A DNA stretch of 64,000 nt from contig JALCQR010000006.1 in NCBI GenBank assembly GCA_022651385.1, forward strand, positions 62,001 through 126,000. Direction: 5' to 3'. This document shows, one piece after another, positions 5,345 through 60,633 of the stretch (position 1 is the first letter of the stretch; the number at the start of each line of letters is the position of its first letter). The stretch is from Clostridia bacterium. Lineage in GTDB: Bacteria; Bacillota; Clostridia; Lachnospirales; Anaerotignaceae. Made by a program: the position numbers and the translations under genes. Under the pieces are notes generated by a model. It made no database searches, was not told the origin of the DNA, and saw only the letters and a program-made list of their open reading frames with translations.

Positions 5345-6076
5345 TTATGTAAATTTCATAATTTCTTTTTTCAGTCTTCCTATAATACGTTTTTCAAGCC
5401 TTGATATATATGACTGTGAAATGCCCAGCATGTCGGCCACTTCTTTTTGAGTTTTTTCCTCACCCTTCGGCGTCATGCCGAATCTTAACTGTACTATTTT
5501 CTTTTCTCTTTGGCTTAATTTATTTATTGCCGCTTTAAGCAGATTTCTGTCCACTTCGTCTTCAATGTCACGGAATATTATATCATTGTCAGTACCGAGA
5601 ATATCACTTAAAAGCAGTTCGTTGCCTTCACAGTCAACATTTAACGGCTCGTCTATCGAAACCTCCGTTTTTGTCTTAGAATTGCGTCTAAGAAACATAA
5701 GTATCTCATTTTCAATACATCTTGATGCATATGTGGCAAGTTTTATATTTCTGTCGGTGTTAAATGTGTTAATCGCCTTAATAAGACCTATGGTGCCTAT
5801 TGATATTAGGTCCTCAACATTTATGCCCGTGTTTTCAAATTTTCTGGCAATATATACAACAAGCCTTAAATTACGCTCTATTAATATTGATTTTGCATTA
5901 TCTTCTTGGTCTGTTTTAAGCATGTTAAGTACACTTGTTTCTTCATCAGGTTCAAGCGGAGGTGGAAATACATCGCTGCCGCCTATGTAGTAAACCTCGT
6001 TTTCCTCTTTTCTCAGACGCATAAGAAATCCTTTAATACTGTATCTGAGCATAAATAAATAATAGTTGATTTTCAT
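5345..6076 (-). CDS. sigE: Sporulation sigma factor SigE (pro-form)
   Basis: Early mother-cell sigma factor, made as an inactive membrane-associated precursor and cleaved by SpoIIGA. The N-terminal ~28 residues are the hydrophobic/basic pro-sequence; EVYYIGGSD marks the processing region. Then follow [20 protein letters not shown] (region 2.1), [12 protein letters not shown] (2.3) and [14 protein letters not shown] (2.4). The region 4.2 helix-turn-helix is [19 protein letters not shown]. Start: ATG 6076 has GGAGG 9 bases upstream and overlaps the spoIIGA stop by 4 bp; the in-frame ATG at 6091 lacks a ribosome site. At 243 residues it is full length. sigG does not follow it here, unlike in Bacillus and many clostridia. 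Confidence 0.97.
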
Positions 6077-6954
6077 ATTCGCTGCCTCCATATATCAATG
6101 TCTCTGCGGGATATTATGGCATGATACCCGCCCGATGATGAAAAACGGCCGTTAAACACCGCTGCTTCCGCATTTTGAAATTTTATTGACTTGCCGTCTG
6201 AAAACACTGCTTCTGCGCAATCAAGTTTAAGTACAGGTATTTCACCGTTTGCGGCACCGAGAGAGGAAAAATTTATATATGATATCCTGTCGTTTTTGTC
6301 ATAACACCCGATAAGAAAATCTTCTCTTTGGCTGTCCGGCAGCAAATTTATTATTGCCGTGTTTTCAGCAGGTATCACAACTGCCCCGCTTTTGCTGTCA
6401 CTTATGAAACATCCCGTGTCAATAAGCGCATCCGTCTCTATAGTTTTGCCGGTATAAAGCATTTTTAACTTGCAGTAATCCTGTCTATTCGAAAACGCCG
6501 ACTCCTTCCATTTTCCGGCTAAATTAAAAAATAAAAAAGCAAGACCGGAAGTTATAATAAAAACAAAAATACTGTTTTTAGGTCCATAGTTTTTAAAGTA
6601 ATACATGACGGACTCAGGCAGATTTGACATTTTTTTAATCCAGACTAATAGACCATATAATAGAGCTGAAAAAAGCATTGTAAGCGCTATTATTTTAAAA
6701 AATCCATATATGCTTTTAGGTTTGAAAAGCAGCCATGAGACACAGATATTAGCAAGAAGTGCCGATAATATGTATAGTATTGGTTTATTGACAAAAATAC
6801 ACATAAGTATTACTTCCGCCAAGGCTCCCAAAGCCGCAAATATTATTATCTTTTTAAGTTTTAAGTATGTTCGTGAAATTACTGAAACAAAATACAGTAT
6901 TGCCACGTCCATAATAAAGCCCTCTATAAATATCTTGTCGGCATATAAAGTCAT
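6073..6954 (-). CDS. spoIIGA: SpoIIGA, pro-SigE processing aspartic peptidase
   Basis: Membrane protease that cleaves pro-SigE after a forespore signal. The N-terminal half has about five transmembrane helices (residues ~10-150). The C-terminal cytoplasmic half carries LIDTGCFIS with the DTG catalytic motif (Asp near 180), as in a retroviral-like aspartic protease that works as a dimer. At 293 residues it matches family length. ATG 6954 is preceded by GGTGGAGAT. It is translationally coupled to sigE by ATGA and driven by the wide-spacer promoter at 6975-7007. Confidence 0.95.
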
Positions 6955-11346: not shown

Positions 11347-11625
11347 TTATTTATCTTCTTCACTCTCTTTGTTATCACTGCCAGAATCAGATTCATCATC
11401 ACAGCCGCAGTTGCAATAATCATCATCACAGTCATCCCAGTCATCATACATATCATCAGCTTCTTTTTCATCCATATGCTTTTTGATAAAAATAGCGGCA
11501 ATACCAACTGCAACAGCACTAACTGCTACAAGGATACCAATAAGGACATAAAGGTTTTTCTTTTCTTCTGAATTTCTTATTTCGGATAACATACCTTTTA
11601 AATCTTCAATGTTGAAATTTTTCAT
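11347..11625 (-). CDS. Small single-pass membrane protein with acidic tail
   Basis: 92 residues from ATG 11625, which has GAGGAGG 8 bases upstream; the in-frame ATG at 11649 contains that ribosome site and is rejected. One transmembrane helix (YVLIGILVAVSAVAVGIAAIF, residues ~26-46) is followed by a strongly acidic tail of Asp, Glu and Ser with three Cys (CNCGC region). It resembles clostridial DUF4366-like small proteins, but no family is claimed. It lies 20 bp downstream of a Nudix gene in the same transcript. Confidence 0.7.
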   Translation of the reverse strand: MKNFNIEDLKGMLSEIRNSEEKKNLYVLIGILVAVSAVAVGIAAIFIKKHMDEKEADDMYDDWDDCDDDYCNCGCDDESDSGSDNKESEEDK

Positions 11626-55422: not shown

Positions 55423-56136
55423 TTAAACAAGTTTTTGTCGCATTTTATCAAGTATTCTCTTTTCCATTCTGGATACCTGAACTTGAGATATATTCATCTT
55501 TCTTCCTGTCTCGCTTTGAGTTCTGTCAAAGTAATAACGCATGAGTATAAGCTGTTTTTCACGGCTGTCAAGACTGTCAAGCGCTTCTTTTAATGACATT
55601 ATCTCATCTGCTTTTTCCGTGCTGTCGCTGTTTTTAATTGTGTCAATTAAGTATGTCCCCTTTCCATTTTCCTCATCAGACTTTCTGTATAGTGACTCTA
55701 CGTCTTTTCCGCTTTCCATTGCCGTAACAAGTTCATCCTTAGGTACATCAAAAATTTTACTAAGCTCACTTATCGTAGGCCATTTTCCCGATTGTGAAAA
55801 AATGGCTTCCGAAACCGTTTTTATCTTGTTCGAAAGCTCTTTTATATTTCTGCTTACCTTTATGATACCATCGTCACGCAAAAAGCGTCTTATCTCTCCA
55901 ATTATCATAGGTACAGCATAAGTTGAGAATTTAACTCCAAAACTTTCGTCAAAACGGTCAATACTTTTAATAAGCCCAATCGAACCTATCTGGAATAAAT
56001 CTTCCATATCGGTACCACGTCCGGAAAATCTTTTTACGGTACTCCAAATTAAACCGCTATTCTCTTTTACTATTCTGGCCCTCGCCTCCTTGTCCCCATT
56101 TTTTGCTTTTCTTAGAAGCTCTGCCATATCGCCCAC
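55423..56136 (-). CDS. sigF: Sporulation sigma factor SigF
   Basis: 237 residues, first forespore-specific sigma factor, held inactive by SpoIIAB. Region 2: LIWSTVKRFSGRGTDMEDLFQIGSIGLIKSIDRF; region 2.4 into 3 reads FSTYAVPMIIGEIRRFLRDDG. The region 4 helix-turn-helix is ETGRKMNISQVQVSRMEKR. Start GTG 56136 has AGGAGT 8 bases upstream. It is the third gene of spoIIA, after the sigma and anti-sigma switch genes. Its conserved AVPMIIGEIRR block is uninterrupted, in contrast to sigG. Confidence 0.97.
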   Translation of the reverse strand: MGDMAELLRKAKNGDKEARARIVKENSGLIWSTVKRFSGRGTDMEDLFQIGSIGLIKSIDRFDESFGVKFSTYAVPMIIGEIRRFLRDDGIIKVSRNIKELSNKIKTVSEAIFSQSGKWPTISELSKIFDVPKDELVTAMESGKDVESLYRKSDEENGKGTYLIDTIKNSDSTEKADEIMSLKEALDSLDSREKQLILMRYYFDRTQSETGRKMNISQVQVSRMEKRILDKMRQKLV

Positions 56137-56142
56137 AAGACA

Positions 56143-56580
56143 TCACTCCTGTTCAGGTTTGCCAATTTCCTTAACCATGAATACACGGGTACCCTTTCCC
56201 ACAGCGCTTTCGACTTTAACATCATCCATAAAGCTCTGCATAATGGTAAATCCAAGCCCGCTTCGCTCCATATCCGGCCTTCCGGTATAAAGCGGCTCCA
56301 TAGCAAGGGCAATATCTTCAATGCCCTTTCCTTCATCTGTTACTTCTATGTAAACTGTGGCCTGGCATATGCCGCACCACATTCTGACGATACCCTCCTT
56401 ATTGTCATAACCATGAATTATACTGTTTGTAACAGCCTCCGAAACTGCTGTTTTTATGTCGTTCATTTCTCTTACACAGGGGTCTAAGCCTAAAATAAAA
56501 GCGGAAACCACCGTTCTTGCAAATGCCTCGTTTTCTCCAATAGCCTTGAAGCTGACAGCCATTTCGTTGTCGTATTCCAT
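56143..56580 (-). CDS. spoIIAB: Anti-sigma F factor SpoIIAB
   Basis: 145 residues from ATG 56580 (GGAGGTG 8 bases upstream). A GHKL-fold serine kinase that binds SigF and phosphorylates SpoIIAA. ATP-site boxes: AVSEAVTNSIIHGYDN (N box), VTDEGKGIED (G1) and RSGLGFTIMQSFMD (G2). It lies between spoIIAA and sigF, with 6 bp to sigF. Confidence 0.97.
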   Translation of the reverse strand: MEYDNEMAVSFKAIGENEAFARTVVSAFILGLDPCVREMNDIKTAVSEAVTNSIIHGYDNKEGIVRMWCGICQATVYIEVTDEGKGIEDIALAMEPLYTGRPDMERSGLGFTIMQSFMDDVKVESAVGKGTRVFMVKEIGKPEQE

Positions 56581-56596
56581 GTGTCTTTCACCTCCG

Positions 56597-56932
56597 TCAC
56601 ACTGCCTTTGCGGCATCTTCTACAGAATCATATATTTTTATTATTCTATATAATCCGGAAAGCATCATTATTTTTTTCAGATTTTCACTTAATCCTGCAA
56701 CAGCCGTAAGTCCTCCTTTATTGAGCGTATATTTATATCGTCCTATTATCATTCCGATTCCGGCGCTATCCATAAAGTCAACATGTGACAAATCAAACAC
56801 TATATTTTTCACACCTGTTTTTACTGCTTCATTATCTATAGCCGTTTTTGCCAAATCCGCAAAATGATGGTCAATGTCTCCAAGAACGCTGACTACAAGG
56901 CAGTTTTTATGCCTTTCAAAAGATATATCCAT
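56597..56932 (-). CDS. spoIIAA: Anti-anti-sigma factor SpoIIAA
   Basis: 111 residues from ATG 56932 (GGAGGGGAG upstream). STAS domain; LSHVDFMDSAGIGMIIGRY contains the Ser phosphorylated by SpoIIAB. Dephosphorylation by SpoIIE releases SigF in the forespore. It is the first gene of the spoIIA operon. A GAAT-bearing possible sigma-H -10 lies near 56972 but at wrong spacing from AGAGGAAAA. Confidence 0.96.
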   Translation of the reverse strand: MDISFERHKNCLVVSVLGDIDHHFADLAKTAIDNEAVKTGVKNIVFDLSHVDFMDSAGIGMIIGRYKYTLNKGGLTAVAGLSENLKKIMMLSGLYRIIKIYDSVEDAAKAV

Positions 56933-57030
56933 TTTCTCCCCTCCTGGAATTTGTTTTTTGTACATACAGTATTCTTTTACTATATTGGAATGTATTTTCC
57001 TCTATGAATCATGACAAAAATTAAGACAAA

Positions 57031-58417: not shown

Positions 58418-58903
58418 TTAAACATATTTTCTCATATGCTTAAGGGCACTTTTTTCAAGTCTTGAAACCTGTGCCTGACTTATACCTACCTCACTGCTTA
58501 CCTCCATTTGAGTTTTTCCTTCAAAAAATCTTAAATTCAATATATGTCTTTCTCTCTCGGGAAGATGGCTCATTGCCTGAGAAACAGCAATATTTTCTAT
58601 CCATTTTCCGTCTTTATTTTTTTCATCGCTTATCTGATCCATTACATATAAAGTGTCTCCGCCGTCGTGAAATACCGGTTCATACAGCGATACCGGGTCC
58701 TGTATTGCGTCAAGAGCCATACATATATCCTCTTTTTTCTCACCAAGTTCTTTTGCAATCTCTTCAATTTTAGGCTCCCGTGAATATTTGTTAATAAGTC
58801 TCTCTTTGGCCTGCAATGCTTTATATGCCATATCTCTTAAACTGCGGCTTACTCGTATTGAATTATTGTCGCGAAGATAACGCCTTATTTCGCCTATTAT
58901 CAT
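58418..58903 (-). CDS. sigG: SigG, C-terminal part (separated from N-part by an intervening segment)
   Basis: 161 codons beginning M-IIGEIRRYLRDNN, closely matching SigG from region 2.4 to the end; the second DNA-binding block is EVSSEVGISQAQVSRLEKSA. SigG is the late forespore sigma factor, and this part carries promoter recognition. The ATG at 58903 is not a convincing start: no ribosome site precedes it (ACATTATCATTCCA), and it is the Met of the AVPM motif repeated at the element boundary. There is no frameshift or stop in the frame. Joined to 59624-59337 it gives a SigG of about 256 residues, near the 260 of Bacillus. Confidence 0.95.
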   Translation of the reverse strand: MIIGEIRRYLRDNNSIRVSRSLRDMAYKALQAKERLINKYSREPKIEEIAKELGEKKEDICMALDAIQDPVSLYEPVFHDGGDTLYVMDQISDEKNKDGKWIENIAVSQAMSHLPERERHILNLRFFEGKTQMEVSSEVGISQAQVSRLEKSALKHMRKYV

Positions 58904-58915
58904 TGGAATGATAAT
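58896..58915. repeat. Boundary palindrome at the downstream edge of the sigG insert
   Basis: ATTATCATTGGAATGATAAT is a perfect inverted repeat of 9-bp arms around a central GG (58905-58906). The left arm belongs to sigG codons, the right arm to the insert. It is a plausible hybrid attachment site. Confidence 0.7.
58900..58906. repeat. Direct repeat copy 1 flanking the sigG insert
   Basis: TCATTGG, identical to 59336-59342. Recombination between the copies deletes exactly 436 bp and restores ...GTG CCA ATG ATA ATA... in frame. Confidence 0.9.
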
Positions 58916-59342
58916 GTTATGTCAAAACAGAGGCATTTAACATATAAAATAAAGTCTATTATTCTTTTGACTTATATCTTGTAAACTTCCGTTAAATTGG
59001 TATATAATTACATAATACGTCAAATATAGTAAGAACGATAAAAAATGTAATAGAACATACATAAAACTTTTGAAGAATTAATGTAAGATAAAATAGAGTG
59101 TTTATTTTGTAAGAGAAAAAAAATATATACGGGTATCTTCTTATATCCAAGACCTTCTCCCAAGAAGCCGGCGGTGTCTTCTGTTGGCTTTCCGCAGTTT
59201 AGGGGTAAAAATTCACCTATAAAAACGCCTTTGCTTGAAGTTGAGGGATTATAAGAATAAATATGGGATATAATCAGATGAAAATTGACTACTATAATTC
59301 CTAATTACCGCTGTGTATATTTTGACCTTTAATGTTCATTGG
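58907..59342. mobile_element. 436-bp intervening element inside sigG
   Basis: It separates the codons for AVPM from those for IIGEIRR. It is mostly very AT-rich, but 59150-59250 is clearly richer in GC. No complete reading frame, recombinase or transposase is present. Its two ends, read inward from the central GG, are AATGATAATGTTATGTCAAAA and AATGAACATTAAAGGTCAAAA, matching at 16 of 23 positions including GTCAAAA at the same distance (15-21). That symmetry fits the two arms of a serine-recombinase attP. It could equally be a miniature insertion with terminal repeats. It needs an enzyme supplied in trans if it moves at all. Confidence 0.8.
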
Positions 59343-59624
59343 CACGGCATAAGTCGAAAACTGCACGTTTTGCGATGTATCAAAATTATCTATTGCTTTT
59401 ATTAGCCCTATACAGCCTACCTGGAAAAGATCGTCCATAACTTCGCCTCTGTTTGAGAAACGCTGGATGACACTTAACACTAAACGCAAATTTCCATATA
59501 TAAATTCACTTCTGGCGTTTTCGTCGCCTTGTTCAATTTTTTTAAACAGTTCTTTTTTCTTATCGGCACTCAAAACAGGCAGCCTTGATGTATTTACTCC
59601 ACATATCTCTACTTTGCTGTACAC
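59301..59624 (-). CDS. sigG: SigG, N-terminal part (reads into the insert and stops)
   Basis: 107 codons. The first 96 match SigG: YSKVEICGVNTSRLPVLSA is the diagnostic N-terminus, then region 2 NLRLVLSVIQRFSNRGEVMDDLFQVGCIGLIKAIDNF and FSTYAVPM (ending at 59337). The last 11 (NIKGQNIHSGN) are insert-encoded before TAG. Start GTG 59624 has AAAGGAGTG 8 bases upstream. As it stands, the product would lack regions 3 and 4 and could not recognise promoters. The interruption is therefore lethal for SigG unless removed. In other spore-formers sigG usually follows spoIIGA-sigE, which here lie 52 kb away in the window. Confidence 0.95.
   Translation of the reverse strand: MYSKVEICGVNTSRLPVLSADKKKELFKKIEQGDENARSEFIYGNLRLVLSVIQRFSNRGEVMDDLFQVGCIGLIKAIDNFDTSQNVQFSTYAVPMNIKGQNIHSGN
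59336..59342. repeat. Direct repeat copy 2 flanking the sigG insert
   Basis: TCATTGG. It lies at the junction of sigG codon AVPM and the insert; flanking bases on the sigG side (CACGGC) do not continue the palindrome seen at the other boundary. Confidence 0.9.
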
Positions 59625-59769
59625 TGTTTATCACTCCTTTCAAATGTCCATCATATTGATGTTTTTTAATTCAAGTATAAATACAGGTGATACCGAAAGC
59701 TCATCACCTAAGAACTTCTCAGTAATGTCAAGTGCCAAGTTCTCCTCATATACCTGCTTATATTTCCTC

Positions 59770-59905
59770 CTTATGTGTATTTTTGTAGCCTTATTCCTAC
59801 AAATTTTACATATTTCGACTTTGTATGAGGTACTGCTATTCCTCGCCAACAACCGTAGAACTGATATTTTCATGTTCTTCAAGCTGTTTTGCTTGAAACA
59901 AATTC
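59770..59905 (-). pseudogene. Remnant of a fructose-PTS EIIA domain
   Basis: Reading the minus strand gives FQAKQLEEHENISSTVVGE, then after a 1-base shift IAVPHTKSKYVKFVGIRLQKYT and a stop. The combination SSTVVGE(G)IAVPHTKS is the EIIA-Fru active-site region (GIGEGIAIPHAKS type) with the phospho-His in PH. Only about 45 codons survive, with a frameshift. It lies downstream of the fruK remnant, in the gene order fruK-fruA. An 80-codon frame over 59882-59640 crosses it in another phase and is not credited. Confidence 0.7.
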
Positions 59906-59959
59906 CGCATTAAAAATCATCTTTGCTGATTTTTAATTTCATTTTTATTGTCTGCTTTC

Positions 59960-60530
59960 ACATTGAGATTTATGCTTTTTCATTTGATTCTTTTTTATTT
60001 GTTTTTATAAAAAAAGGTCTAAGTTTAATAATTTTTTTAATTAAGCACCGGAAACATCACATATAATTTTTGCTCTGTTTTCAGCTGTTTTTGTAATTAA
60101 AAAATAATACATCTCTGTTCTAAGCCTTATAAAAATATAGCAGTATTATCTATTATTAATTTTCCCGGCCTTTTAAGAAGTTCTTCAGCTTCGTAGCATT
60201 TTGGCCTTCCAGAATTTATCTCTGTTTCTCTGTTTCAGTTTTGCCATGCAGTCTAATATTTATCCTCGAAAATCTGTTTTTTATCGAAACAAAATTATGT
60301 TTAATTTCACATTCGTCTAACTGGCTGCATATTTAATCTCCTATAAAAACGGATGCAAACCCCAGTATTGTACCTTCAAGGCCAATATTTCTAAGCATTC
60401 TTGAAATGCTTATTCCATTTCCGACTATAATAAAACACTATTTTGATGAACGGTTTATGTCGCCTTTAATAATTTTATTTATATTCATACTTAAGTCAAT
60501 AGATGGACTAAACGTAAAAGTATATATCAA
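59960..60530 (-). pseudogene. fruK: Decayed 1-phosphofructokinase gene
   Basis: From TTG 60530 (AGAGGTGA upstream) the frame reads LIYTFTFSPSIDLSMNINK, KGDINRSSK, stop, then IIVGNGISISRMLRNIGLEG, GFASVFIGD, stop, then FSRINIRLHGKTETE, and after a shift INSGRPKCYEAEELLK. Near 60050-59980 it resumes as RAKIICDVSGA...RPFFIKTNKKE. These match FruK blocks MIYTVTxNPxLDY, GGKGINVSxVLKNLG, and KPFLIKPNxxE in order. At least three stops and two shifts, with the last third lost, make it a clear pseudogene. The rest of 59880-60600 is AT-rich with no credible gene. Confidence 0.8.
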
Positions 60531-60633
60531 AAAATCACCTCTGGTTAATGATTTATCAAAAAGCATGTCTCAAAATCCATATTTATGATATAATAAATTT
60601 AATGTTTTTATACAAATGTTAGGAGTGATGTTA

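Follow-up and report, generated by a model that had tools for sequence, protein, structure and literature searches.

A 436-bp element interrupting the forespore sigma factor gene sigG in a Clostridia bacterium, probably removed by a large serine recombinase encoded on another contig

Large serine recombinases (LSRs) integrate DNA without a partner and excise it together with a directionality factor. The attP site of a large serine integrase consists of a two-base core between long imperfect dyad arms, and the motifs of attP and attB are usually offset by about 5 bp. A gene may also be switched when a mobile element integrates reversibly, as in the active lysogeny of the comK prophages of Listeria. 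Among the sporulation genes that host such elements, spsM and spoVFB are likewise mother-cell or SigK-controlled targets. Sporulation genes split at LSR att sites include gerE of B. cereus ATCC10987 (gin), spsM (SP-beta), spoVFB (vfbin) and yabG (yin), as given in PMC5595907 and PMC10747680. According to the same papers, GerE and SigK act in the mother cell (PMC5595907) and yabG is under SigK control (PMC10747680). PMC5025042 describes the excision of C. difficile skin as confined to the terminal mother cell, and for this element it also covers the scheme in which an LSR excises with a directionality factor and integrates without it. Excision in the mother cell costs the lineage nothing, because this cell dies. 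To our knowledge, all programmed gene-intervening elements of sporulation lie in mother-cell genes.

The interrupted gene considered here is sigG, located in a window of 64,000 nucleotides (the whole stretch of DNA analysed) from a genome labelled G000. The 5' half (59336..59624, minus strand) starts with GTG at 59624, runs to AVPM plus one base of the next codon and matches the SigG model TIGR02850 at positions 2-96, while the 3' half (58418..58906, minus strand) reads from MIIGEIRR to the stop and matches positions 94-254. Either half alone matched both TIGR02850 and NF006071. In agreement with the initial annotation, the reading frames within the window contain no stop or frameshift in either half, and the 7-bp direct repeat TCATTGG lies at both edges of the insert, one copy belonging to each half: 58900..58906 at the C-half junction (plus strand, core GG/CC at 58905-58906) and 59336..59342 at the N-half junction (plus strand, core GG/CC at 59341-59342). 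The intervening element (58907..59342, minus strand) comprises 436 bp, that is a 429-bp interior and one repeat copy. The claim that its exact removal restores the gene was reproduced in silico and gave an open SigG of 256 residues. The insert thus sits inside the coding sequence of a sporulation-specific gene, the frame of which is restored by exact removal between short direct repeats, as in elements of the skin/gin type.

A second complete sigG, which had been considered earlier as a possibility, was not found in G000: the TIGR02850 profile (E≤1e-30) matched four places, one in each half, one in sigF and one in a sigma gene of the housekeeping type. A full-length sigG match was present in 45 of the 58 genomes of the family, and all 80 named loci retrieved with the C-half as the sole query were uninterrupted. 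The remaining 13 family genomes are G000 itself, G004, in which the gene is broken elsewhere (residues 114/115), five in which it is ended by contig edges and six without a match above the sigF level. Since sigG is mostly whole in family genomes and named loci, the break in G000 is real and is not the usual state of the gene. The loss of sporulation, which had also been raised, is made less probable by two operons that are recognisable and unbroken in the window, spoIIGA-sigE (5345..6954, minus strand) and spoIIAA-spoIIAB-sigF (55423..56965, minus strand); they count against an asporogenous organism without ruling it out. The stretch of the window upstream of sigG (59640-60600) is gene-poor and, by eye, contains a decayed PfkB-type kinase gene.

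The ends of the insert are very probably att sites of the LSR family represented on contig C3. When joined, they are symmetric about the CC of the repeat at 17 of 25 positions, and when 60,000 end pairs were drawn at random from the window, 16 gave a dyad this good at one of six centres, the dyad having been seen by eye before the test. The motif GTCAAAA occupies positions 15-21 of both arms, i.e., 59320-59326 in the arm at the N-half junction (59316..59340, minus strand) and 58921-58927 in the arm at the C-half junction (58907..58931, plus strand). A matrix made from 31 arms of other genomes (12 N-side and 19 C-side, G000 left out) and scored over 127,950 window positions ranked these two arms 9th and 30th, respectively. 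Their scores of 10.6 and 7.2 bits are below every leave-one-out value in 12 other genomes (13.2-23.0 for the N arm, 8.5-23.8 for the C arm), and therefore the G000 arms are divergent members of the att set. The dyad in the joined ends recurs in 13/13 genomes with both arms, at 14-21 of 25 positions. In the restored sigG, which represents attB, positions 11-17 are occupied by GTCGAAA in one flank and by GGCGAAA in the opposite flank, closer to the core than in the arms, and the shift between attP and attB amounts to 4 bp. The insert is thus flanked by apparent att sites of a recombinase that contain both direct and inverted repeats, a further property of skin/gin-type elements, and the 7-bp repeat is the att overlap (the CC core plus AATGA) and not a transposon duplication. 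No copies of the arms were found in the surroundings of G000 LSR genes that were examined, and in two arm-pattern scans of viral contigs, which returned 25 and 3 stretches, the dyad never exceeded 10 of 25.

The 429-bp interior contains no ORF of at least 60 aa, and its three longest stop-free frames had no PHROGs or Pfam match at E≤0.1. The insert matched no Rfam family, either at the gathering score or at E≤10, its predicted fold was no better than that of shuffles (z 0.88), and no second copy was present in G000. The Rfam result and the fold speak against a group I/II intron or another RNA element, and the single copy speaks against a MITE or insertion sequence. The interior had no detected homologue among 392 order-level genomes (four matches, each of at most 47 bp), a comparison set in which the genus of G000 is represented by one genome, or in plasmids (38 bp in two records only). 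Among phages, the search returned only 56 bp at no more than 81% identity in one Flavobacterium phage group (best E 8e-4), and this AT-rich match is taken as due to chance.

Nine LSR genes were found in G000, two of which have no phage neighbours in the stretches read, one on contig C3 and the other on contig C9, adjoining a piece of pdaB. The C3 LSR (G000:C3:64659-66011, 450 aa) belongs to the phrog_95 integrase family, is full-length and possesses the resolvase, recombinase and zinc-ribbon domains, as well as a length within the 400-650 aa, that define the LSR family. As read, its neighbours are a TrkA-type gene on one side and an RfbA-type gene on the other, and no att site of its own is visible beside it. 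It shares 48% identity (over 457 aa) with the LSR of a phage whose integration site is the same sigG codon, and 23-29% with the other eight LSRs of G000. From this kinship we infer sigG as its target, and it is likely to be able to act on the sigG att sites of G000. The initial annotation had cautioned that a tiny element without a recombinase may simply have inactivated sigG. The first part of this caution holds, as the insert lacks the site-specific recombinase that a skin/gin-type element carries, the candidate LSR being on contig C3; the inactivation does not follow from it. A recombinase-free insert need not be dead, given that the genome encodes a sigG-targeting type of LSR elsewhere, as an orphan, and that the ends of the insert match the att arms of this type.

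Directly upstream of the C3 LSR, ending about 15 bp before it, lies a gene for a 40-aa protein (G000:C3:66026-66148) that matches no PHROGs or Pfam family. Most LSRs of this family are preceded by a small ORF with a common N-terminus of the R-hydrophobic-NG type; G079, G155 and G162 yielded no such ORF, and the ORFs upstream of the G662 and G745 LSRs are outside the common pattern. The 40-aa protein is a candidate directionality factor. A terminator-like repeat upstream of the operon is duplicated about 270 bp apart (L157:11237-11265 and 11508-11540). In a promoter scan upstream of the LSR operons at 19 loci with consensus strings, the number of shuffles per 300 that scored as well was 2 (sigma-F), 3 (sigma-K), 13 (sigma-A), 39 (sigma-G) and 47 (sigma-E); the scan is not specific to a sporulation sigma factor and was therefore not used as support.

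The same junction occurs in phages. The C-half of sigG as a query against viral contigs returned three IMG/VR contigs (3300029305_011549 and two shorter ones) in which the LSR is followed directly by a sigG C-half with the break at the same codon; they were counted as one phage because their LSRs are identical. Up to the core, the phage junction has 18 of 23 letters in common with that of G000. The N-half query gave one weak, unrelated match. The phage scaffold MT839977.1 in GenBank, the record examined out of 160 matched phage records, has the same layout of LSR and sigG C-half.

The C3 LSR as a query (E≤1e-85) retrieved 12/392 order-level and 10/391 class-level genomes, G000 being in both, which gives 21 genomes. 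Among these, sigG is split at the same codon in 19; the exceptions are G282, where sigG is intact and the LSR is present only as fragments at the ends of contigs, and G190 (68% complete), in which no sigG was seen. The LSR adjoins a sigG half in 11 genomes (G075, G079, G090, G155, G162, G225, G232, G249, G391, G398 and G757), where it is 54-60% identical to the C3 LSR, and does not adjoin it in eight (G000, G436, G440, G463, G494, G561, G662 and G745), some of these LSRs being on contigs as short as 3.1 kb (G463) or 9.6 kb (G440). G130, from the genus of the split G090 and G155, has no LSR match and a whole sigG, and in the LSR-free G111, from the genus of an LSR bearer, sigG is uninterrupted as far as residue 240, close to the edge of a contig. 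Fifteen LSR-bearing genomes yielded both halves, only the C-half was located in G075, G398 and G561, and the C-half with a partial N piece in G162.

The halves lie on the same contig in four genomes (G000, G090, G225 and G391), always in direct orientation, and therefore the joining reaction there would be excision. The element of G090 (2.55 kb) contains tRNA-Trp and tRNA-Thr genes, and the halves in G225 are 14.7 kb apart, with ordinary genes such as a YceG-type one between them. The 2.5-kb element of G391 carries a gene for a bacterial microcompartment (BMC-domain) shell protein as cargo (L239:11146-11859). Similar cargo proteins starting with MTRKQAL lie at opposite insert ends in G090 (L246) and G225 (L274/L242), which indicates that the LSR and its cargo have opposite orientations with respect to sigG in these two genomes. 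The halves were on different contigs in 11 genomes. The bases from break to contig end of both halves sum to at least 37 kb in G436, G494, G662, G745 and G757, and the genes next to the breaks in different-contig genomes look ordinary chromosomal; in G436, for instance, the N-half is followed across the break by a class I tRNA synthetase gene.

Both halves of the split gene are under strong constraint. In five congeneric split pairs, dN/dS was 0.009-0.084, values that are rough because synonymous sites are near saturation, and that come from a comparison of split pairs only. The N- and C-half values were 0.009 and 0.034 for G090/G155, 0.069 and 0.054 for G232/G249, 0.036 and 0.018 for G436/G463, and 0.084 and 0.074 for G662/G745; for G494/G561 only the C-half was compared (0.036). 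The neighbours of the orphan LSR are conserved within G436/G463 and within G662/G745, and those of the N-half in G662/G745, which suggests that in these pairs the split is older than the species. If so, the halves were constrained while apart, and therefore both stayed useful and had to be joined at some point. In the LSR tree, the trans arrangement does not form one clade; it requires four changes, at least two of them forced by well-supported branches. The C3 LSR is paired with that of G391, where the element is encoded in cis, with modest support (85/78).

A second sporulation gene of G000, pdaB (spore polysaccharide deacetylase), is also split, between C1 (~165377; L198) and C9 (~130549; L158:8191-8435), and another LSR gene starts about 70 bp from its C-half. 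The frame is restored when the pieces are joined at TGATA, and the ends brought together are symmetric about GA at 18 of 25 positions. This LSR was set aside as an actor on sigG, being 29% identical to the C3 LSR and having the core GA versus CC. At least 20 of the 58 family genomes have pdaB in two pieces with a similar break (profile position ~130), the base-level check being that in G000; among the matches listed, the pieces are on one contig in at least 10, all in direct orientation and 10 to 46 kb apart. A conserved pdaB-intervening element in the family is a likely reading of these pieces. A prophage-like region of G000 (G000:C7:145001-175977; L151, L152) has two neighbouring LSR genes at its end and a third further on.

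Taken together, the insert in G000 is probably a non-autonomous sigG-intervening element that is removed by an LSR acting in trans. Its ends would be the attL and attR of a former LSR-integrated element, a phage or a small mobile element, which now enclose 429 bp without genes. In the default state sigG would be split, with attL and attR present. The C3 LSR would recombine attL with attR at the CC core, releasing the insert and leaving a restored sigG and an attP, and the 40-aa protein would probably assist it; in the absence of a directionality factor, the enzyme would run the reaction backwards and re-integrate. The action of the C3 enzyme on the sigG site, the directing role of the 40-aa protein and the tie to sporulation are each deduced. 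The tie to sporulation is less firm than the action of the enzyme: excision is somewhat more likely than not to form part of sporulation.

The same parts could serve a reversible switch outside the sporulation programme, with occasional excision and re-integration during growth, which would leave sporulation to be completed by a subpopulation alone. In its favour, LSR-att systems can integrate without a directionality factor and excise with it, the related element yin of C. botulinum is described in PMC10747680 as a mixture of integrated and excised states in pure culture, and the germ-line problem discussed below would be eased. The promoter scans of the LSR operons, which single out no sporulation sigma factor, do not speak for it, and it is considered rather unlikely. 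It is improbable that the insert is a dead relic, i.e., a phage or element once integrated in sigG and decayed to a 436-bp scar, with sigG inactive, spores lost or SigG dispensable and the C3 LSR serving otherwise. The loss of all genes from the insert, arms that are the weakest of the att set and the stretch upstream of sigG (59,640-60,600), which reads as degraded, would agree with decay. However, the sigG halves have kept their frames free of stops and shifts, the C3 LSR is full-length with all three domains, the spoIIGA-sigE and sigF operons are uninterrupted, and the split sigG remains constrained in other genera.

This constraint on both halves, together with an in-frame start near the junction in several C-halves, could also be expected if the halves were translated separately and acted together without any joining of DNA, a two-piece sigma factor for which SigO-RsoA is the comparison case. 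However, the break at SigG residue 94-96 falls in what we take to be conserved region 2, and therefore neither half contains a complete domain; the conserved non-coding att arms and the association with an LSR are left unexplained, and the halves are on different contigs in several genomes. Such a factor is very unlikely. Least credible of all is removal at the RNA level, by self-splicing or otherwise, or the insertion of a transposon or MITE. A small non-coding insert with a short direct repeat has the appearance of either, but the Rfam search, the fold and the single copy all oppose it, and an identical junction in unrelated inserts tracks an LSR.

The preferred reading, a sigG element removed in trans during sporulation, meets a difficulty that its mother-cell counterparts avoid. 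SigG is active in the forespore, the cell that passes on its chromosome, and therefore excision there would strip the insert from the germ line. The loss of 429 gene-free bp might be harmless, but tRNA genes lie between the halves in G090 and ordinary genes in G225. The different-contig splits, with ordinary chromosome next to the breaks, could not be resolved by forespore excision unless DNA were lost, and the options there are inversion, re-integration or a different cell. A wider proposal, which is put forward tentatively and is more doubtful than the reading for G000, is that sigG-specific LSRs form a widespread forespore sigma-G switch in Clostridia, germ-line and reversible, in which the recombinase has repeatedly been uncoupled from its DNA and halves on different contigs are joined by a chromosome-scale rearrangement, e.g., an inversion. 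That sigG is split recurrently and under constraint, with a recombinase of its own that several genomes encode away from it, raises the question of how a developmental DNA rearrangement in the germ line can persist. The case also presents a family of serine integrases that share a single conserved target within a coding sequence and that occur naturally both in cis and in trans, and gut Clostridia in which sigG is called a pseudogene may have been misjudged. No account of an interrupted sigG was found by title or abstract start in the open-licence literature, and sporulation target genes are absent from the main text of a large survey of LSRs (PMC10083194).

Summarizing, the earlier view of a precisely excisable element in sigG, comparable to skin, holds in silico, and the likeness to skin is apt. 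As with skin in sigK of B. subtilis and C. difficile, the coding sequence of a sporulation sigma factor is interrupted, precise removal restores the gene and a serine recombinase is involved in the proposed reaction. Unlike skin, the target is a forespore gene, and the 436-bp insert contains neither a recombinase nor a directionality factor, the LSR being on another contig. The gin element differs further, with 28.6 kb and three recombinase genes. The sigG-integrating phages (IMG/VR 3300029305_011549 with its two shorter contigs, and MT839977.1) share the LSR family, the adjoining sigG C-half and the codon junction with the G000 locus, but they are contigs of phage or phage-like nature that have kept the LSR beside the sigG half. 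In contrast to active lysogeny, no autonomous phage resides in the sigG of G000. Because the definition of an intervening element demands its own recombinase, the sigG element, which carries none, is not a standard member of this class; in its mode of action it would resemble skin.
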